Below are positions 13,820-47,672 of a stretch of 64,000 nucleotides of DNA, one piece after another. The stretch's first letter is position 1, and each line of letters opens with the position of its first letter. The DNA comes from Salinisphaeraceae bacterium (lineage in GTDB: Bacteria > Pseudomonadota > Gammaproteobacteria > Nevskiales > Salinisphaeraceae): positions 1 through 64,000 of the forward strand of contig NYTH01000030.1 of assembly GCA_002683405.1 (NCBI GenBank). Direction: 5' to 3'. A program made the translations under genes and the position numbers. The notes under the pieces are model-generated. The model was not told the DNA's origin. It did not search any database and was given only the letters and a program-made list of their open reading frames with translations.

Positions 13820-14989
13820 TCAGGGTGCCGCGGCCACGTTGATGGCAATGGTGTCCACCACATTGCCGCCTGCCTGCGTGCGTACCCGGACGATAGCGCC
13901 ACCGGTAGACGATCCGGCACGGTAGATCGACTCCGCCACGCCGGTGGCATCGGTCACGTCGGTTTGCTGGCCGGCCTCGATGCGATCGCCTCCGGGGCAG
14001 TCGGGACTGGGCATCACGCCGCCCGCGCATTCCTGAATTTCAAACACCAGCGTGACGTTCTCCAGCAGATTGCCGGCGCTGTCACGCGCCACCGCCCGAA
14101 GATTGCTGGCGCCAGTCACGCCGATCGTGGTGGGGTCGGCCGACAGGTCGAGGCTGCTGGGCTGGCCGACGAACATGAGCGGCAGGCTGGCCGTAAAGCC
14201 GCCGTCAGCCGTTGCGGTGACCACCGCGTTACCGGGATTGCCGCTGTTGGTCAGCCGGACGACGTCGGCGAACTCGCCGTCTACGAGGTCCACCATGACC
14301 GGATTGGCCAGCGCGTCAGTTCCCACCACGAAACCGCCCTGCACGCCGTCGCCGGACAGGCTGAGCATGATCGGCCCAGCCCCGCCGGCCGGCGGGGCCT
14401 CGCCCGTATCGACCGGCTCGCCGCCGATGAACCACTCCAGCTGCAGCCCGAGATCCCCGGGCGGCACGCGCCGGTTTGGCTGCGGGACGGTGAACTGGAA
14501 CACGTCCGGCGTCACCATTACGTCAAGCCGGGTCGAGAGGGTCGAACTGCCGGAACTGACGTTGGCGCGCAGTTGCTCGGTTCGCGGCTGATCGGCGTTC
14601 GGCGCCGTATAGCTGAAATTCACTTCGCCAGCAGCATCGGTATTGGCGCCGCCGGGTGGATTGACGATGCCCTGGGTCGGCTGAATGCTGACAAACAGCC
14701 CGCCCCCGGGCGGCGCCACGCCGTTTTCATCGAGCAGCGTGGCCACATAGTCCGACGAGGAATTCGGTGACACCGTATCCGGTCCTTCGATGGTAAGCAT
14801 GGCCGTGCTGAAGTCGAAGGCTTCGCCGCCGTTATCGCCGTCGCCACCCTGATCGGGCGGCGGGCCCAGGCTGAGATCGCTACCGCTGCCCCCACCACCA
14901 CAACCAGCGAGACCGAGCACGGCCGCGAGCATGACCAGGACAGCCTGGCGACGAAATAAAGCAGTCACGGAAGATGTCGCGCCGGACAT
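13820..14989 (-). CDS. Ig-like-domain lipoprotein between aroK and aroB
   Basis: A 389-residue predicted lipoprotein. A signal peptide ends in lipobox LAGC with C30 as the lipidated residue, then a Gly/Ser/Asp linker ([19 protein letters not shown]). Beta-rich repeats follow, resembling bacterial Ig-like (Big-1/invasin) modules: [33 protein letters not shown] and [14 protein letters not shown] are typical strand-turn signatures. It shares this architecture with the larger lipoprotein at 15763. It is probably anchored in the outer membrane. Lying between aroK and aroB in the pilus gene run hints at a link with the pilus or cell surface, but no function is known. Confidence 0.85.
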
Positions 14990-15762: not shown

Positions 15763-17442
15763 CTACTGGGAGACGGTTGCCCCGAGCGTCTGTACCAGGC
15801 CGCTGGGCGTGGTAACGGTCACCGTGAACCGGCCGGTATCAGGCTGATCACCGGGTGACAGAAAGAACGGGAAGACGGCAGGGCCGGGCGAAGTGGTAGA
15901 CGCCTGCGTGTAATTGCTCGGCCCCTCAATTGTGCCGATCGATGTTTCGGCTGAAATCGTGGTGCCGGCGGGTGGCACCTGACCACGCGCATCAACCACC
16001 GAGACGTTTACGGTCCGCCCACCCATCGTCAGATCGATGGTACTCGGATCAATGGAGATAACGAAGGTCGATCCGGAAAACACGATGGTGATGTTGCGAA
16101 ATACGTTCAGCGTGTCGGCAGTATCGCATTGGGCATTGGCGGCCGGGTCACACAGCAAGCCCGTAAACAGACCGTTGCCCATGTCATAAGTGCCCGGCGT
16201 ACCGCCGAAATCCAGGAAGGGTTCCGTGGCATCACGTACACCGTTCTCGTTGTCGTCACGGAAGGCCTCCGGCAGGTCGTCAAAAGCCTCGCCGCTATCA
16301 AACACGCCGTTCGAGGGTGTGGTATCGGAAAAACTCTCTTCGCCAATCGCTGATACCCGGACCGTTACCCGGCCGTCGGCGGGGCGCGGAGATTGCGAAG
16401 TCAGATCCACCGAGCATGCGCCGGCTGCAGTGAGACAACTACCGAAGACGGAACCGCCCTCGGTGGTGAAGTTCACGGCAGTACCATCGGGGACCGGGTT
16501 GTTGAACCGGTCTGCGGCACGCGCCGTAATTGTGGTGGTCGTACCGTCGATGTCCCACCCCTCGATGTTGAGTACGGTGGCGCTGACGGAGAAGCTGTCC
16601 TGATCCGGTATGCCGGTAGTAATGGCGAGACCGCTCGACTGCGCAGACGTCGTGCTGCCGTTGTCCCGCAGGGCTGAGGCGGTGATTCGTACGGTAGTGG
16701 CAACGGTCCCCGAGTTGACGGTGGTGCTCACCACGCCGTTCGAGTCGGTTGTGCCTTGCATATTGCTCAGGCTGATGCCTCCGACCGTTGTATTCAGATT
16801 GAAATTGACCTGCCGGTTCGGTACCGGGCCACTGGTGTTGTTGGTCAACCGGAAAGTCACGACCGACTGCTCGGGCAACGAACCGGAACCCTGAATGCCA
16901 ATGACCGGCTGACTGACGCCGGTAAACTGAATCGAGCCCACCGGGGCCTGTTCGGTCTGCAGCGTCACGCTAGCGGTCAGGTTGACGCCATTGACGGATG
17001 TAGCCGCCGTCACCGTGTCGCTGGGATCACAGCCGCGCGCGGTGTAGGTGACGTTGACGGTACCGGTGGCGTTCGTGACGACGGCCTGGTCAAGTTCGGA
17101 CAGCCCCTGGCCGACACAGGGCGAAGAGAAGAATACATCCACGTTTTCGGTGACGGGGTTGCCGCTGTCGTCGACCAGGCTGACGCTGAGGGCCGCACTC
17201 TCGCCGGCAGTCAGCATGGTGTCATTGGCGGCAATTGTGCCCTGGGTAAAATTGGCCGAGTTGTCGAATGAGCCCAGGCGTATGGTCGGATTGTTCGGAT
17301 CCACCGGGTCGACAGGATCAGTCGGATTGTTCGGATCATTGGGATCCACCGGATCGTCTCCGCCCCCCGTCGAGCCGCCGCAGGCGGACAGGCTGATGAC
17401 GAGGAAGGCGATCAGGGCGTAGCTCAGGCGCTGAATATTCAT
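15763..17442 (-). CDS. Large Ig-like-domain lipoprotein downstream of pilQ
   Basis: A 559-residue lipoprotein with lipobox LSAC (C21). A repetitive Asp-Pro linker follows (DPVDPNDPNNPTDPVDPVDP), then several beta-sandwich repeats resembling Big-1/invasin Ig-like domains, for example NNTSGPVPNRQVNFNL and NGVVSTTVNSGTVATTVRI. Near residues 393-407 the sequence DDNENGVRDATEPF resembles a DxNxNGxxD calcium-binding loop. A few cysteine pairs may form disulfides. The ribosome site GGAAAGAG precedes ATG 17442. It lies 55 bases after pilQ on the same strand, so co-expression with the secretin is likely. A surface or pilus-assembly role is only a guess. Confidence 0.88.
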   Translation of the reverse strand: MNIQRLSYALIAFLVISLSACGGSTGGGDDPVDPNDPNNPTDPVDPVDPNNPTIRLGSFDNSANFTQGTIAANDTMLTAGESAALSVSLVDDSGNPVTENVDVFFSSPCVGQGLSELDQAVVTNATGTVNVTYTARGCDPSDTVTAATSVNGVNLTASVTLQTEQAPVGSIQFTGVSQPVIGIQGSGSLPEQSVVTFRLTNNTSGPVPNRQVNFNLNTTVGGISLSNMQGTTDSNGVVSTTVNSGTVATTVRITASALRDNGSTTSAQSSGLAITTGIPDQDSFSVSATVLNIEGWDIDGTTTTITARAADRFNNPVPDGTAVNFTTEGGSVFGSCLTAAGACSVDLTSQSPRPADGRVTVRVSAIGEESFSDTTPSNGVFDSGEAFDDLPEAFRDDNENGVRDATEPFLDFGGTPGTYDMGNGLFTGLLCDPAANAQCDTADTLNVFRNITIVFSGSTFVISIDPSTIDLTMGGRTVNVSVVDARGQVPPAGTTISAETSIGTIEGPSNYTQASTTSPGPAVFPFFLSPGDQPDTGRFTVTVTTPSGLVQTLGATVSQ

Positions 17443-17497: not shown

Positions 17498-19567
17498 TTA
17501 ACGTCCCACAGTCAGCGACTGCCGGAGGATCTTGGGCGTGACGAAGATCAGCAGCTCGCGCTTGTCGCGCTGCTTGGAGGTGTTGCGGAACAGCGCGCCA
17601 ATCAGCGGCAGTTCACCCAGCACCGGCACGCGGTTGACGTTGTCGCGATCTTCCTGCTCGTAGATGCCGCCGAGCACCACGGTCTCGCCGTTGTCCACCA
17701 GCACCTGCGTGGTGAGGCTGCGGGTGTTGATGGACGGCACCTGGCCGCCGCCCTGCACGTTGATGGCGTCACCCTGCGTATCCTGCGTAACGAACAGGTC
17801 CATGATGACGCGCTCGTCCGGCGTGATCTGCGGCGTGACCGTGAGGCTCAGAACCGCTTCCTTGAACTCCACCGTGGCCGCGCCCGAGGACGCCGCTTCG
17901 AGGTAGGGAATCTCCACGCCCTGCTCGATGCTGGCCTCGCGGGAGTTGGCGGTAATTACGCGCGGTGAGGAAATGACTTCACCGTTGTTCTCGGTTTCCA
18001 GCGCCGACAGCGCCAGATCCAGGTTGAATGTATCGCCCAGAATGCTCGTGGTCAGCACGCCGGCCGGGTTGGCCACGGGCAGATTCACCTGGAAGCCCGA
18101 GTTGGTTAGATAGTTGCCGTCGGTGGGCGACTCGAAGGCGCCCTGGTCCGCCGTGCTGTGCGACACACCCAGGTTGCGGGTGAACTCGCGGCTGGCCACG
18201 ACGATGCGCGATTCGATCAGCACCTGGCGCACCGGGATATCCAGCTGATTGATCAGGCGCCGGATTTCCTCGAGCTTCTCCCGGGTTTCGTTGATCAGCA
18301 GCGTGTTGGTGCGCTGATCGATCGTCACCTGGCCCCGCGGCGACAGCAGCGAGATTTCGCCGGATTTGAGCAGCGCCGCAAAATCGGCCGCGCGGGCATA
18401 GTTGATCTGGATGAGCTCGGAGCGTAGCGGCGCCAGATTGACGGTGGCCTGCTGGGCTTCCAGCTCGGCCTGCTCGCGCGCCGCGATTTCGGCCAGCGGC
18501 GCGACCAGCACCACATTGCCTTCCTGGCGCTTGCCCAGACCCTTGGTGGTCAGAATGATCGCCAGCGCCTGATCCCAGGGCACGTTCTCCAGCCGCAGCG
18601 CCATGGTGCCGGACACGCTGTCCGAAACCACCATGTTCACCTCGGCCACGTCGGCGATGATCTGCAGCAGCGCCCGCACGCTCACGTCCTGGAAGGACAG
18701 CGAAATGCGTTCGCCGGTGTACTTCGGCTTTTCGCGCTGACGCTTTTCGATTTCGGCCGCGGTCAGCGGCTGCAGTTCCACGGTGAACAGGTCACCGGTC
18801 TGGTAGGCGATCTGCTCGAACTCGGCATCGGCCAGCGGGGTGATGACCACGCGAGTCTCGTCGCGGCCGCCCAGCACGTCGATGAATTTCACGGGGGTGG
18901 CAAAGTCGATCACGTCCAGCCGCTCGGCAAGCTCGTCCGGCAGCTGGGCGTTGGGGAAGCGGGCCACGATCTTGCCGCCTTCCTCGGACACATCCACCGG
19001 GCCGGTCACGCCGGTGTAATGAATCATCACCCGGCCGGCGCCGCTTTCGCTGCGCCGGAAGTCGACGTCTTCAATCATCGGTCCGGCCGCGCGCGGCGCA
19101 GACCGGGGCTGGCTCGCCGTACGCGTGGTGGCGGCGCCGACCGCCGCCGGGTCGCCAATGCGCAACCGCACCTGATTGCCTTCGGTGTTGATGGTGTAGG
19201 GCACCAGGCGGGTCAGCTCGACCACGGCGCGGGCCCGGTCGCCGCCCTGGGCAATCGCCACGCCACGCGTGGGGCCCACATCAATTTCGCTATAGCGCGA
19301 GTCGGTGCCGACGGTCGTGTCCGCGAAGTCCAGCGAAATGCGCGCCGGCTCGTCCACGGTGAACACCCCCGGCTCGGTGGCCGGCTGGTCCAGCGTGAAG
19401 GTGATCTCTACCTGCTCGCCCGGCAACGCGACGTGGCTGACCGACTGCAGTGTGCCCGCAGCCCAGGCCGATGCCGACATCATCAGCGCAGACGCACCGG
19501 CCACTGCTGCAGCAAACCCCCTGGCAGCAAACGGAATGCGGGCTGCGAGACGGACGTTCTTGTTCAT
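17498..19567 (-). CDS. pilQ: Type IV pilus secretin PilQ
   Basis: Outer-membrane secretin through which the type IV pilus exits. The 689-residue protein has a signal peptide ending near ASAWA, N-terminal AMIN-like beta domains that bind peptidoglycan (from about 40), an STN/N0 segment around residues 290-345 (ISLSFQDVSVRALLQIIADV), N1-type repeats (LLINETREKLEEIRRLINQL), and the C-terminal secretin barrel from about 420 (SRIVVASREFTRNLGV to VLGGIYEQE). It is the last of pilMNOPQ, 25 bases after pilP. Length and order are standard. Confidence 0.97.
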   Translation of the reverse strand: MNKNVRLAARIPFAARGFAAAVAGASALMMSASAWAAGTLQSVSHVALPGEQVEITFTLDQPATEPGVFTVDEPARISLDFADTTVGTDSRYSEIDVGPTRGVAIAQGGDRARAVVELTRLVPYTINTEGNQVRLRIGDPAAVGAATTRTASQPRSAPRAAGPMIEDVDFRRSESGAGRVMIHYTGVTGPVDVSEEGGKIVARFPNAQLPDELAERLDVIDFATPVKFIDVLGGRDETRVVITPLADAEFEQIAYQTGDLFTVELQPLTAAEIEKRQREKPKYTGERISLSFQDVSVRALLQIIADVAEVNMVVSDSVSGTMALRLENVPWDQALAIILTTKGLGKRQEGNVVLVAPLAEIAAREQAELEAQQATVNLAPLRSELIQINYARAADFAALLKSGEISLLSPRGQVTIDQRTNTLLINETREKLEEIRRLINQLDIPVRQVLIESRIVVASREFTRNLGVSHSTADQGAFESPTDGNYLTNSGFQVNLPVANPAGVLTTSILGDTFNLDLALSALETENNGEVISSPRVITANSREASIEQGVEIPYLEAASSGAATVEFKEAVLSLTVTPQITPDERVIMDLFVTQDTQGDAINVQGGGQVPSINTRSLTTQVLVDNGETVVLGGIYEQEDRDNVNRVPVLGELPLIGALFRNTSKQRDKRELLIFVTPKILRQSLTVGR

Positions 19568-19592
19568 GGTTCTCCCCTGCCTAAACTAGCGG

Positions 19593-20120
19593 CTACTCGG
19601 ATTGGGCCAGCGCGGCTTCGCTTTTCATGTAGCCGCCCATGCCGTCCGGAACAATCTCGATTAACTGAATTCTTGTATCCCCAATGGAAACGATCTGGCC
19701 GAAGTTTTCGCCCATGTGGTTTCCAACCCGAACGCGGTGTACCACGTTATCGGGCGCCTGGACCAGCGCGTAGCGGCGCCCGGCAATATCCAGCGTGCCC
19801 GCCATGCGCAGCGAGTCGAGCGGAAATTCCTCGAGCGGCTCGCGGTTGCGATTGAAATCGGGCTGCACGCCCGACGAAGCACGATCCGGACCACTCGACG
19901 TGGTCACCACGGCCACAAAGGGATTGCGCCGGCCCTGCTCGCGATAGGTAAAGGGCTGGTAGGCCTTGATCTGCGGAATCGGCTCGATATCGGAGGACTT
20001 GCGCGACTTCACGTCTTCCACGTAGCTGCGCAGGTCACTCATGTTGTTGCCGCACCCGGAGAGTGCCAGCCCCGCAAGCAATGCGGCGGCGGCCCCGGCG
20101 GCTGTGCCAAAGCGGGTCAT
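19593..20120 (-). CDS. pilP: Type IV pilus pilotin-like lipoprotein PilP
   Basis: Inner-membrane lipoprotein linking PilN/PilO to the secretin PilQ. The 175-residue protein has a lipobox in LALSGCGNN and an extended low-complexity stretch with IEPIPQIKAYQPFTY. A C-terminal beta domain (LRMAGTLDIAGRRYALVQAP, then VHRVRVGNHMG) matches the PilP fold. Its start overlaps the pilO stop by four bases. Confidence 0.95.
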   Translation of the reverse strand: MTRFGTAAGAAAALLAGLALSGCGNNMSDLRSYVEDVKSRKSSDIEPIPQIKAYQPFTYREQGRRNPFVAVVTTSSGPDRASSGVQPDFNRNREPLEEFPLDSLRMAGTLDIAGRRYALVQAPDNVVHRVRVGNHMGENFGQIVSIGDTRIQLIEIVPDGMGGYMKSEAALAQSE

Positions 20121-20737
20121 TCGGCCACCTCGTCTTCATCCAGGTATCGGTAGGTATTGGCGATGACGGACATGCGCAGCTCGCCCTCCGTGGAGGCCTC
20201 GCCCTCCTTGACCGGCTGGATGCTCACGTTCTCCAGCGTGACGATGCGCGGCAGCGCGGCCACACCGGAGACAAAATTGGCCAGCTCGTGATAGGTGCCG
20301 ATGACCACGAGGTCGTTCGGCAGCTCGGCGTAGAAATCCTTCTTGATCTCGGGGCGCGGCTTGAACAGCTCTTCTTCCAGACCGCTGGCCAGCCGGGTCT
20401 GGGAAATATCGTTGAGCAGCTTGGGCACTTCGGTTTCGCTGGGCAGCTGACGCAGCAGCGTGCCGAAGGTTTCCTCCATCTCGGCCAGCTGCTGCTTGTA
20501 GGCATCCAGATTGGCCACCTTGTTCTGCTTGCGCTCGAACTCGCCGCGCAGCTCGACTTCCTTGGCGGTGACCCGCTTGAGCTCTTCCTGCTTGGGCGTG
20601 ATGAGGTAGTAGTAGCCCAGCCCGAGAATGAGCAGCGACACGATCACGCAGGCGCCAATATAGGCCCATCGCGGCCAGGCACCGATATTGTTCTGGTCGA
20701 GCCCCTTGAGCTCGTCGACGAATTCCTGAACGTTCAC
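20117..20737 (-). CDS. pilO: Type IV pilus alignment protein PilO
   Basis: A 206-residue bitopic inner-membrane protein that pairs with PilN. A cytoplasmic N-terminus (MNVQEFVDELKGLDQNNIG) leads to one membrane helix (AYIGACVIVSLLILGLGYYY). A periplasmic coiled coil follows (KQEELKRVTAKEVELRGEFE), then a ferredoxin-like domain from about residue 110. It overlaps both pilN and pilP by four bases, indicating translational coupling. Confidence 0.96.
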   Translation of the reverse strand: MNVQEFVDELKGLDQNNIGAWPRWAYIGACVIVSLLILGLGYYYLITPKQEELKRVTAKEVELRGEFERKQNKVANLDAYKQQLAEMEETFGTLLRQLPSETEVPKLLNDISQTRLASGLEEELFKPRPEIKKDFYAELPNDLVVIGTYHELANFVSGVAALPRIVTLENVSIQPVKEGEASTEGELRMSVIANTYRYLDEDEVAE

Positions 20738-21339
20738 CGCGACACCTCTTCGTCAAAGCTGCTCTCGTAGTCTTCCTCTTCCGACTTGCCGGGCGTGACG
20801 GACTTGAAGTTCAGCGTGAAATCGGCGTAACGGCGGCGGTTCTCGCTTTTGCTCTTGATCACGACCAGACGCGGATCGGCGAACCAGTCCGAATCGTCGA
20901 TGTTCACCATGTAGGTGGACACCCGGCCGTTGGACTCGGCCACGCCATCGATGGTCGTGCCCTTGCCCGACTGCTTGAGCGAAGTCAGATGCACGCCTTC
21001 GGGCAGCGTGTCCACCGCCTGATCGAAGAAGTGGACGATTTCGGTGCGGGCCTGCTGCAGCTGCTCGATGATGCGCATGCGGGTAATCAGGTTATCGCGC
21101 ACCCGCTCGAGCTCCTTGATTTCCTCGATCTGCTTGTCGATCTGCTTGATCTCGTCCTGCAGATAGGCGTTGCGTGCCTGCTGGCCGCTGATGGCGCTGT
21201 TGTAGCCGAACCAGCCTGCGCCGACGATGCCGGCGCTCACCAGACCCACCGCCGCCAGCACCGTGAAGAAGCGCTGCTTGCGCTGCTCGCGACGCTCCTC
21301 GCGCCAGTCGAGCAGGTTGATGGTAATCATGGGAATCAT
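20734..21339 (-). CDS. pilN: Type IV pilus assembly protein PilN
   Basis: A 201-residue inner-membrane protein. The N-terminal INLLDWREERRE is the conserved cytoplasmic peptide that docks onto PilM. One membrane helix follows (VLAAVGLVSAGIVGAGWFGY), then a periplasmic coiled coil and a PilN/PilO-type fold. I keep ATG 21339, since GAGGGGG lies at good spacing; a second ATG nine bases later is possible. It starts ten bases after pilM. Confidence 0.96.
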   Translation of the reverse strand: MIPMITINLLDWREERREQRKQRFFTVLAAVGLVSAGIVGAGWFGYNSAISGQQARNAYLQDEIKQIDKQIEEIKELERVRDNLITRMRIIEQLQQARTEIVHFFDQAVDTLPEGVHLTSLKQSGKGTTIDGVAESNGRVSTYMVNIDDSDWFADPRLVVIKSKSENRRRYADFTLNFKSVTPGKSEEEDYESSFDEEVSR

Positions 21340-21349
21340 TGCGGCCCCC

Positions 21350-22426
21350 TCAATGGAACGAGCGCATGGCCAGCCCGGTGGCCACCATGAGCGCCGGGCC
21401 TTCCATGTCTACGCGGTTGCGACGGGCTGACGCGCTTACGCGTACGCCGTGCAGCGGATTGCCCACCTTGGTCGAGATACCCAGGTGCCGTTCCACCATT
21501 TCGTCGATCTCGGGCAGCAGCGCGCAGCCGCCACTGATCAGCACCTGATCGACCGTGTCGCTCTCGGTAAAGGAGGAGAAAAAGAACTGCAGCGAGCGGT
21601 CGATCTGCTGGGCCATCAGCTCGGCAAAATTGGGCAGCACGTCGCTGCGCACTTCGCTGGCGAGCTCGCCGCTGCGCAGCATCCTGAGTGCCTCGCTGGC
21701 CGGAATTTCCATACGGCGCTGGATTTCCTCCAGCAGCTGCCGGCCGCCGAAACTCTGCTCGCGGGTGTAGACCGTCTCCTGATCGTGCACCACGTTGACG
21801 CAGGTATTGCTGGCGCCGAAATCGACCACCGCCACCGTCTGGCCGGCGCCCGCACCGGAAAGATGGGACACGAGCAGCTGGCAGGCGTTCTGCAGCGCGT
21901 ACGCTTCAACATCCACCAGGCGCGCTCGCAGACCCGCCATCTCCACCGCGGCCACGCGCATGTCGACGGTGTCGCGGCGGCAGGCAGCCAGCAGGACCGA
22001 ATTCATGTCGGGGTCGCGCTCGGACGGCCCCAGAATCTGGAAATCGAGGCTGACATCCTCGATCGGATAGGGAATGTACTGGTCGGCCTCGAAGCCGATC
22101 TGCTGCTCGATCTCGTCTTCGGACAGCGTGGCCGGCATGTCAATGATCTTGCTGATGACCGAGGAGCCGGTGACCGCCACGGCCGCCGTGTTCAGCCGCG
22201 TGTCCGACCGCTTGACCGCCTTGCCAATGGCCTCGGCCACCACTTCAGCGTTGGCGATCTGGTTGTCGGCCACCGCGTTCGGGGGCAGGTCTTCCGTGGC
22301 GTAGGATTTAACCTGCATGCGCGTGGCGTCGCCGGTCAGCTCGAGCAGCTTCACACGCGAGGAACTGATATCCAGCGCCAGCAGCGCCGAAGATTCCTTC
22401 CCCATCAACGTATCAACAAGCCCCAT
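21350..22426 (-). CDS. pilM: Type IV pilus assembly ATPase-like protein PilM
   Basis: A 358-residue actin-fold cytoplasmic protein that binds PilN and helps couple the motor to the periplasmic alignment complex. Actin-family nucleotide motifs are visible: LLALDISSSRVKLLEL (phosphate 1), VVDFGASNTCVNVV (phosphate 2) and LISGGCALLPEID (adenosine). Ribosome site AAGGGGAT precedes ATG 22426. It opens the pil operon and is divergent from the penicillin-binding protein 1A gene, the classical gammaproteobacterial arrangement. Confidence 0.97.
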   Translation of the reverse strand: MGLVDTLMGKESSALLALDISSSRVKLLELTGDATRMQVKSYATEDLPPNAVADNQIANAEVVAEAIGKAVKRSDTRLNTAAVAVTGSSVISKIIDMPATLSEDEIEQQIGFEADQYIPYPIEDVSLDFQILGPSERDPDMNSVLLAACRRDTVDMRVAAVEMAGLRARLVDVEAYALQNACQLLVSHLSGAGAGQTVAVVDFGASNTCVNVVHDQETVYTREQSFGGRQLLEEIQRRMEIPASEALRMLRSGELASEVRSDVLPNFAELMAQQIDRSLQFFFSSFTESDTVDQVLISGGCALLPEIDEMVERHLGISTKVGNPLHGVRVSASARRNRVDMEGPALMVATGLAMRSFH

Positions 22427-45305: not shown

Positions 45306-45398
45306 TGCCCTGGCAGGGGTAGGAACGATCATGACGCCGCGCCTTGCATGCGGCGAATCCGGCGTCAGCGCGCCGGACAGCAAGTTCGGAAGCAATTA

Positions 45399-46175
45399 AT
45401 GAGCATGGATTCGCTAGATAGCCGGGCCCGGCCCACGGCCGACGAGCAGGGCTGGGCACCCGCCGATTTCAAGTTGACCATGGCCTTTCAGCCCATCGTC
45501 GACATGGCGGAAGGGACCATCTTTGCCCACGAGGCGCTGGTGCGTGGCCCCAACGGCGAGTCTGCGGCACACGTGCTGTCCGGCGTGCCCGCCGATTCGC
45601 AAAGCCGCTTCGACCAGCTCTGCCGGCGCCGGGCCATGGAACTGGCCGCCCGGCTCAACATCAGCGAGCGCATATCCATCAATTTCCAGCCGCTGCCCGA
45701 GAACAACCTCGAGCGCGGCATCATCCGCACGGTCAAGCTGGCGGATACCTTCGACCTGCCGCTATCGCAGCTGCTCTTCGAGATCACCGACAGCCATCGC
45801 ACGACCAGCCTGGATTTCGTCAAGGAAGTCATTGGCGCGTATCAGGCCAACGGCCTGGCTACGGCGCTGGACAATTTCGGCAACGGTCTGGTCGAACTGA
45901 ACGACCTGGAAATGGTCGCGCCGGACATCATCAAGCTTGATCGCGAACTGACGCACAACATCGACAGCAACCGCGTGCGGCAGATTTTCGTGAAGAGCGT
46001 GGTGGACGTGTGCAACGAGATCGACTGCCGCGTCATCGCCCAGGGCGTGGAGTCTCAGGCTGAGCTGGAATCGCTGCTCAGCTTCGGCATCACGCACTTC
46101 CAGGGCTACCTGCTGGCGCGGCCCAGCCTGGAATCGGTCGCAGAACTGGATAACGATCTACCCGCCGGACCCTGA
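45399..46175 (+). CDS. EAL-domain protein with degenerate active site
   Basis: A 258-residue stand-alone EAL domain of the group found in BLUF-EAL proteins, without a sensor domain. E45-A-L, N95, E128, D158, K179 and the QGYL Gln (Q235) are kept. However, the usual D-D-F-G is LDNFGNG (N159) and the usual E-G-V-E is Q215-G-V-E. Those two lost carboxylates normally hold metal or act in catalysis, so c-di-GMP hydrolysis is doubtful. It may bind c-di-GMP or partner proteins instead, as inactive EAL proteins such as YdiV do. ATG 45399 is preferred over ATG 45405 and an earlier in-frame start at 45348. Confidence 0.92.
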   Translation: MSMDSLDSRARPTADEQGWAPADFKLTMAFQPIVDMAEGTIFAHEALVRGPNGESAAHVLSGVPADSQSRFDQLCRRRAMELAARLNISERISINFQPLPENNLERGIIRTVKLADTFDLPLSQLLFEITDSHRTTSLDFVKEVIGAYQANGLATALDNFGNGLVELNDLEMVAPDIIKLDRELTHNIDSNRVRQIFVKSVVDVCNEIDCRVIAQGVESQAELESLLSFGITHFQGYLLARPSLESVAELDNDLPAGP

Positions 46176-46211: not shown

Positions 46212-46877
46212 TCAGAACGGCCGGGGCTGATCCTGCGCGGCATCAGGCAGGGCCGCGGCGGCGGGCGCGGGCTCACCGGCCAGCCAATCGCGCAGACGCC
46301 GATACACGCGGGCCAGCGCCCGGAACAGCTTGGGCAGCAGCCAGATCATGAGCGCCAGCGCGCCAATCATGAGCACCAGCATCACTTCGGGATGGTGGAG
46401 CGCGGCCCAGACCCCGCCGATGACCATGACGTCTTCCGCAATCGACAGCGACCAGTTGCTGAACGGCTCGGGCGAGGTATTGACCAGCGCCCGCGTGCCG
46501 GCCTTGGTTGCGTGGCTGCCCGCCGCCATGCCGCCGCCCACCAGGCCAGCTGCAATCTCCAGCGCCGGGCCGGCTTCGCCGAATACCCCTGCGGCCAGCA
46601 TTGCGCCTGCCGGAATGCGCACAAACGTGTGCAGCGCATCCCAGCCCGTATCCACGCCGGGTACCTTGTCGGTAAAGAATTCCACGCAATACATCAGCCC
46701 GGCCGCGCCGATTACCATCGGGTGCTCGACCACCTGCAGCGCAGGCGGCAGTTCGGCGGTACCGCTGGCGCCCAGCAACCCGAGCGTCAACACGGCGGCA
46801 TACAGGTTCACGCCGCTGGCCCAGCCAACGCCGAGCGTCAGGGCCAGCATCGTGACGAGTTCGTGGTATTGGTCCAT
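46212..46877 (-). CDS. DUF4126 family membrane protein
   Basis: A 221-residue protein with four or more hydrophobic segments. LALTLGVGWASGVNLYAAVLTLGLLGASG, YCVEFFTDKVPGVDTGWDAL, GLVGGGMAAGSHATKAGTRA and NTSPEPFSNWSLSIAEDVMV are the conserved DUF4126 blocks. The C-terminus is Ala/Pro-rich (AGEPAPAAAALPDAAQ). It converges on the EAL gene and is divergent from 47025. Function unknown. Confidence 0.88.
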   Translation of the reverse strand: MDQYHELVTMLALTLGVGWASGVNLYAAVLTLGLLGASGTAELPPALQVVEHPMVIGAAGLMYCVEFFTDKVPGVDTGWDALHTFVRIPAGAMLAAGVFGEAGPALEIAAGLVGGGMAAGSHATKAGTRALVNTSPEPFSNWSLSIAEDVMVIGGVWAALHHPEVMLVLMIGALALMIWLLPKLFRALARVYRRLRDWLAGEPAPAAAALPDAAQDQPRPF

Positions 46878-47024
46878 CAGACGGTCCCTCCCGCACCATG
46901 TCGGACGAGGATAGCCAATGGGTCTGAATAGAGCCTGAACAGCGCGGCCCGCCGCCGGTGGCGCTTTTCCCTTCTCCGCAGTTAGCGCTATGATTCAGGT
47001 CGGTTTGCCGTGCGGGCAATCCCC

Positions 47025-47672
47025 ATGAGTCCCACCTACATCATCGCTTTCTTCTTCGCCCTGGGCATTTTCTTCCTGCTCATGGCGCTGGTGCGCCTGC
47101 GCGTGCGGCGGCCGGCCGCGGCCGCACGCAGCGGCCTGACCGCTGTGCTTTTTCTCGGTCTCGGGGTGCTCGCCACCGGCGCCGGACTCAATCTCTGGAC
47201 CTATCACCGGCTGACCTTCGAGCAGCCCGTCGCCACGCTCGAGTTCGAGCAGGTCGGCCCCCGCATGTACCTCACCCGACTGGCCCAGCAGAACGGCGAG
47301 GAGCGGGTGTACGAAGTGGCGGGCGATCAATGGCAGCTGGAGGCCCGCGTGCTGAAATGGCAGGCGCCGGCCAACCTGATCGGCCTGAACGCGCAGTACC
47401 GGCTCGAGCGGCTGACCGGGCGCTACGCCAACGTGGACGACGAACGCCAGAGCCTGCGCAGCGCGCACGATCTGGCGCACGAGCGAGGCCTGAATTTCTG
47501 GCAGCTTACTCAGCGCTACCCGCGCTGGCTGCCGATCGTGGACGCGCAGTACGGCAACGCGACCTTCATGCCCATGGCCGACACGGCGCGCTTCAACGTA
47601 AGCATGACGCAGTCGGGCCTCATTGCCCGCCCGGACAACGACGCCGCCCGCGCCGCGCTGCGGCGCTGGTAG
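47025..47672 (+). CDS. Conserved membrane-anchored protein of unknown function
   Basis: 215 residues. Two N-terminal membrane helices (YIIAFFFALGIFFLLMALV and AVLFLGLGVLATGAGLNLWT) are followed by a soluble region probably facing the periplasm. The soluble part includes YEVAGDQWQLEARVLKWQAP, GLNAQYRLERLTGRY and a terminal DAQYGNATFMPMAD segment. I recognise it as a conserved gammaproteobacterial hypothetical, sometimes annotated as an efflux-related protein without evidence. It converges on the thioesterase gene, three bases away. Confidence 0.75.
   Translation: MSPTYIIAFFFALGIFFLLMALVRLRVRRPAAAARSGLTAVLFLGLGVLATGAGLNLWTYHRLTFEQPVATLEFEQVGPRMYLTRLAQQNGEERVYEVAGDQWQLEARVLKWQAPANLIGLNAQYRLERLTGRYANVDDERQSLRSAHDLAHERGLNFWQLTQRYPRWLPIVDAQYGNATFMPMADTARFNVSMTQSGLIARPDNDAARAALRRW

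Follow-up and report, generated by a model that had tools for sequence, protein, structure and literature searches.

Among described EAL proteins, the closest in both sequence and fold to the protein studied here is VcEAL of V. cholerae O395, a single EAL domain of about 257 aa (PDB 6ifq, 6ij2) that is reportedly an active c-di-GMP/cGAMP phosphodiesterase, as the title of Yadav 2019 has it. Other members of the family are partly or largely degenerate. The EAL domain of FimX, a c-di-GMP receptor for type IV pili, is degenerate and binds c-di-GMP (PMC3527489); FimX is a multidomain protein and lacks the DDFGTG motif (PMC5301497). YdiV (RflP) is a stand-alone EAL protein without activity, which has lost eight of ten catalytic or binding residues and does not bind c-di-GMP (PMC3510510). 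In Klebsiella KPK_3794 the EAL domain is partly degenerate, with an Asp that takes part in c-di-GMP binding and a Glu that takes part in Mg binding missing (PMC3509220); it is joined to a BLUF light sensor, and a BluR-type regulator is encoded along with it. Degenerate EAL-only proteins are common, with 450 of 1805 in a count quoted in PMC3510510.

The window, the whole stretch of 64 000 nucleotides from a Salinisphaeraceae bacterium that was analyzed, encodes a single-EAL-domain, stand-alone protein of the VcEAL type. EAL (PF00563) is the sole Pfam family found in its 258 residues (residues 25–242, 150.2 bits, curated cut-off 31.3, E 8e-44), in contrast to KPK_3794 with its fused light sensor. 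The best PDB sequence match is VcEAL (6ifq, E 2.3e-48), with 38–39% identity; identity to FimX is 18–21%. An AlphaFold2 model built from an input of 45 sequences is confident (mean pLDDT 87.1, pTM 0.85) and predicts the EAL barrel fold, its best fold match being again VcEAL (6ij2, TM 0.84, 38% identity). The start codon is plausible, with an alternative in-frame ATG at 45348. A literature search on this EAL protein found no paper. The features discussed in the following are:

45388..45392, + strand: GGAAG, possible ribosome-binding site 6 bases 5′ of the ATG (read from the sequence)
45399..46175, + strand: stand-alone EAL gene, 258 codons and a stop (ORF translation, Pfam, PDB match, AlphaFold2 model)
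45531..45545, + strand: E-A-L-V-R, codons 45–49, retained signature that includes the metal-1 Glu and the Arg touching the substrate (alignment; roles from PMC7911125 and PMC5301497)
45681..45683, + strand: Asn, codon 95, metal-1 ligand position, kept (alignment)
45780..45797, + strand: E-I-T-D-S-H, codons 128–133, with E128 kept, E131 changed to Asp and E133 to His (alignment)
45870..45881, + strand: D-N-F-G replacing D-D-F-G, codons 158–161; the changed codon 159 is 45873–45875 (translation, alignment, pattern search)
45888..45890, + strand: Leu, codon 164, at the position of the compound-helix Tyr of BlrP1; Tyr, Phe or His in 111 of 112 relatives (alignment; PMC3989770)
45933..45941, + strand: K-L-D, codons 179–181, catalytic Lys and metal-2 Asp position, kept (alignment)
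46041..46052, + strand: Q-G-V-E replacing E-G-V-E, codons 215–218; the changed codon 215 is 46041–46043 (translation, alignment, pattern search)
46212–46877, − strand: DUF4126 gene, following the EAL gene (Pfam)

The second Asp of DDFG and the Glu of EGVE mark a catalytic EAL phosphodiesterase. VcEAL has both in the PDB-match alignment, whereas the window protein has neither and reads A-L-D-N-F-G at residues 156–161 and A-Q-G-V-E at 214–218. A sequence-only reading of this DNA had named these two substitutions, N159 and Q215, and the translation of 45399–46175 (+) as well as the presence of Asp159 and Glu215 in all 112 relatives bears it out. Its further statement that the other signature residues persist is only partly right: it holds for Q31, E45-A46-L47, R49, N95, E128, D158, K179, D181, E218 and Q235, but E131D, E133H and L164 in the loop were overlooked. 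RocR binds its metals through E175, N233, E265, D295, D296 and E352, and Q161 and R179 contact the substrate (PMC7911125). In PA3825, metal M1 is held by Glu39, Asn98, Asp130 and Asp160, and M2 by Asp161 and Asp183 in the Mg complex or by Asp160 and Glu217 in the Ca complex (PMC5301497). Placing this numbering on the window protein by motif and spacing rather than by direct alignment, RocR D296 corresponds to N159 and E352 to Q215, while the position of PA3825 Asp183 is the retained D181. The metal-1 set of E, N, E and D is complete (E45, N95, E128, D158), and Q31 and R49, which contact the substrate, are both present, as would be expected of a degenerate FimX-like receptor (roles PMC7911125). 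Leu164 aligns with BlrP1 Tyr308 in the PDB-match alignment and falls in the compound helix, where substitutions reduce the activity of BlrP1 (PMC3989770). A literature search for the substitutions D296N and E352Q found neither term in the papers listed.

How unusual these changes are was judged against two sets of relatives. A whole-protein search gave 32 homologues (11 within the family, 4 added by the order and 17 added by the class), and a pattern-seeded scan of named genomes gave 80 loci; the same species may occur in both sets, which together make up the 112 relatives. Asp159 and Glu215 were found in 32/32 homologues and in 80/80 loci. The latter count carries a bias, since DDFG is part of one of the three seeds, even if a match to any one seed was enough for selection. 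Glu131 is present in 112/112 relatives and Glu133 in 110/112. In leave-one-out comparisons with all 112 relatives, 49 columns reach 95% conservation, and the window protein deviates in 8 of them; of the 38 that reach 98%, it deviates in 4, namely E131D, E133H, D159N and E215Q, all at acidic residues. The other sequences show a median of 0 departures, with maxima of 7 at the 95% and 3 at the 98% level, and the next most deviant relative at the 98% level, with 3 departures, has all four acidic residues intact. The chance that four columns drawn at random from these 38, 11 of which are acidic, are all acidic is 0.0045 in a test that was chosen post hoc. With the 32 unbiased homologues alone, 9 of 50 columns differ in the window protein, against 8 of 51 in L042, the relative that deviates most. 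Judged from these alignments, the window protein is barely an outlier by the number of its departures alone; it is the location of the changes that sets it apart. Of the 111 relatives whose N-terminus could be read (L010–L139), 91 share a further feature, a CxxC motif no more than 40 residues ahead of FQP; some of the upstream residues in this count may precede the true start codon. The window protein has no N-terminal CxxC (45399–45485), its cysteines being at 75, 205 and 210 only; as 20 of the 111 relatives also lack the motif, it does not define the family. We know of no description of a CxxC before FQP in EAL relatives.

The reading we favor, with a probability of roughly one half, is that of a former phosphodiesterase that no longer cuts c-di-GMP but retains its binding and acts through a partner protein. 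The loss of c-di-GMP hydrolysis, which had also been proposed in the sequence-only reading, is very probable, as N159 and Q215 replace invariant residues at metal-site positions and E131 and E133 are changed as well. Retention of c-di-GMP binding we consider slightly favored over its loss; the suggestion of the sequence-only reading that the protein may bind c-di-GMP or a protein partner is compatible with the binding residues that are kept. D159N and E215Q alter positions that bind the second catalytic metal in solved EAL domains, while the metal-1 ligands E45/N95/E128/D158, the water-activating Lys179 and the substrate-contacting Q31/R49 are in place. In the proposed mechanism the scissile phosphate would escape attack for want of a functional second metal site, and the pocket could still take the nucleotide; binding might then alter the protein surface or a dimer and relay the signal to a partner, as FimX does. 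The genome contains 21 GGDEF, 3 PilZ and 8 EAL matches, and given the GGDEF and PilZ proteins a c-di-GMP signal should exist in the host. Some points speak against this reading. Full-length FimX, although degenerate, hydrolyses weakly in one report (PMC3527489). Q215 alone need not be fatal, because the residue matching E215 does not contact M2 in the PA3825 Mg complex (PMC5301497), and the changes in the compound-helix loop could have ruined the pocket too.

The protein might instead be a protein–protein adaptor without useful metal or c-di-GMP binding, its EAL fold serving as a docking surface for a regulator. YdiV and E. coli BluF are precedents for such a fate (PMC3510510, PMC3509220), and the altered compound-helix region (162–170) together with an altered segment at 99–107 would fit it. 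However, the changes in segment 99–107 at the 95% level are partly common to L072 and L102, whose catalytic residues are canonical, and the window protein keeps most of the residues concerned, of which YdiV has lost the greater part (8 of 10) and BluF all four that bind c-di-GMP. We rank this c-di-GMP-blind, YdiV/BluF-like adaptor second to the partner-coupled receptor and regard it as possible but unlikely.

A gene under relaxed selection, heading for loss and without present function, appears more doubtful still. In the tree the end branch of the window protein is long (1.46 against a median of 0.29), and a close orthologue was not found: the nearest relatives are 35–46% identical and all canonical, protein searches of 17 genomes of the family, 85 of the order and 369 of the class yielded none, and neither did the GTDB contigs (41 pattern stretches, 0 relatives), the viral contigs (9 pattern stretches, 0 relatives) or a tblastn search of plasmids, in which all 3851 matched records were below 60% identity (best 47.1%). 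Same-family relatives, moreover, have no EAL gene at this locus. By the refuting condition set in the sequence-only reading, orthologues with the canonical residues, the N159/Q215 change looks lineage-specific on these comparisons, which does not restore the missing residues. Against relaxed selection, the frame is intact, 34 of the 38 columns of the 98% level are retained, and the codon-usage score of 0.380 is ordinary, lying inside the range of the 19 other window genes (0.120–0.486). Random decay is also not expected to strike acidic active-site columns alone. L077 has an even longer end branch (1.83) yet retains D159, E215, E131, Y164 and all acidic residues, so that divergence alone does not remove them. 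A slow but working phosphodiesterase, in which Asn and Gln mimic the shape of Asp and Glu and hold a weak second metal next to the retained D158, D181, K179 and metal-1 ligands, has some precedent in the weak hydrolysis that one report gives for full-length, degenerate FimX (PMC3527489), but is highly improbable given that neither substitution occurs in any relative, that E131 and E133 are changed too and that six other EAL proteins of the genome are canonical at these positions.

The combination of Asn and Gln recurs in unrelated EAL proteins. A codon pattern for DNFG, a spacing of 56 residues and Q-G-(V/I/M/A/T)-E/D was found in 4 of 369 genomes of the class, once in each and including the window; such counts cover EAL domains that match this spacing and the codon patterns exactly. 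The three other carriers, L179, L181 and L182 (in G175, G399 and G447), are EAL domains in frames of at least 603 residues that are cut by the locus edge. In the same genomes Asn occurs with Glu in 15 matches from 14 genomes, 14 of the 15 having the ExLxR signature upstream, and Asp occurs with Gln in 5 matches, reduced to 4 as one is spurious due to an in-frame stop; half of the Gln cases thus also carry Asn. A control with the pattern read backwards gave 0 among the matches listed. For the total number of EAL domains we can give at least 561 first-look candidates in 38 listed genomes, unconfirmed as domains. For any total that exceeds about 500, independence predicts fewer than 0.4 double cases, compared to the 4 observed. 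The pair might be a recurrent, independently reached route to receptors that hold c-di-GMP, the amides dropping the charge and keeping the shape as in a substrate trap, but this seems improbable to us, and a general relaxation of constraint once one residue has changed would produce the excess too.

The sequence-only reading had also pointed to type IV pili as a c-di-GMP-controlled system encoded in the window. Pilus genes are indeed present (a secretin with AMIN domains, pilN and pilM, at 17498–22426), but they lie about 23 kb away and a tie to the EAL gene is unsupported; its adjacent genes are mutM, DUF1232 and DUF4126. Two ORFs next to the pilus secretin, 13820–14989 (−) and 15763–17442 (−), have matches to bacterial Ig-like domain group 1, that of the former staying below the curated cut-off. 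The EAL gene lies 93 bp 3′ of the DUF1232 gene on the same strand, with no terminator-like site found between the two, and DUF1232 is preceded by mutM. The latter, named by similarity only, has one matching gene per genome (59–66% similarity) in 16 of the 17 family genomes, the self-match included, while the DUF4126 gene has no match in the 16 other family genomes. A literature search on the DUF1232 and DUF4126 neighbours found nothing relevant among the papers listed.

Two genomes of the family could be read on both sides of the locus. In G009 and G016, DUF1232 is followed by a dehydrogenase-like ORF (short-chain-dehydrogenase-like by motif reading) and then by a homologue of window positions 47010–47672, with neither an EAL nor a DUF4126 gene at this locus; G012 has the same dehydrogenase-like ORF after DUF1232, with the next homologue outside the stretch, and in G002 the contig ends. 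Both genes were therefore either placed here in the lineage of the window or lost in the others. In the tree the long-branched window protein takes a position without support, and a tree that groups it with the family's own 11 copies was not rejected (p-AU 0.723) and fits better than the free search. On this basis, a vertical copy that moved and diverged appears as possible as an acquisition.

Besides the window protein, the genome encodes seven EAL proteins, six of them canonical at the catalytic positions read. The seventh, L008 (G000:C44:47844–48551), is a second degenerate EAL domain located behind a GGDEF domain and beside a canonical GGDEF-EAL gene; it has EVL, Gln at 128, Gly-Asn-Val-Asp in place of DDFG, Arg at 179 and Asn at 215. 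An assignment of L008 as FimX is unsupported, its best PDB matches being DosP and enzymes, with FimX appearing only at E 1e-4.

The role of a non-catalytic signal receptor or adaptor is a known and fairly common fate of EAL proteins, and the window protein is probably one more case; as long as neither a partner nor a series of orthologues is at hand, it is a further example of a well-known class. If it does bind c-di-GMP without cutting it, it would be a 258-residue single-domain receptor from a family whose relatives all look active, and it would offer a convenient case for the effect of losing only the second metal site.
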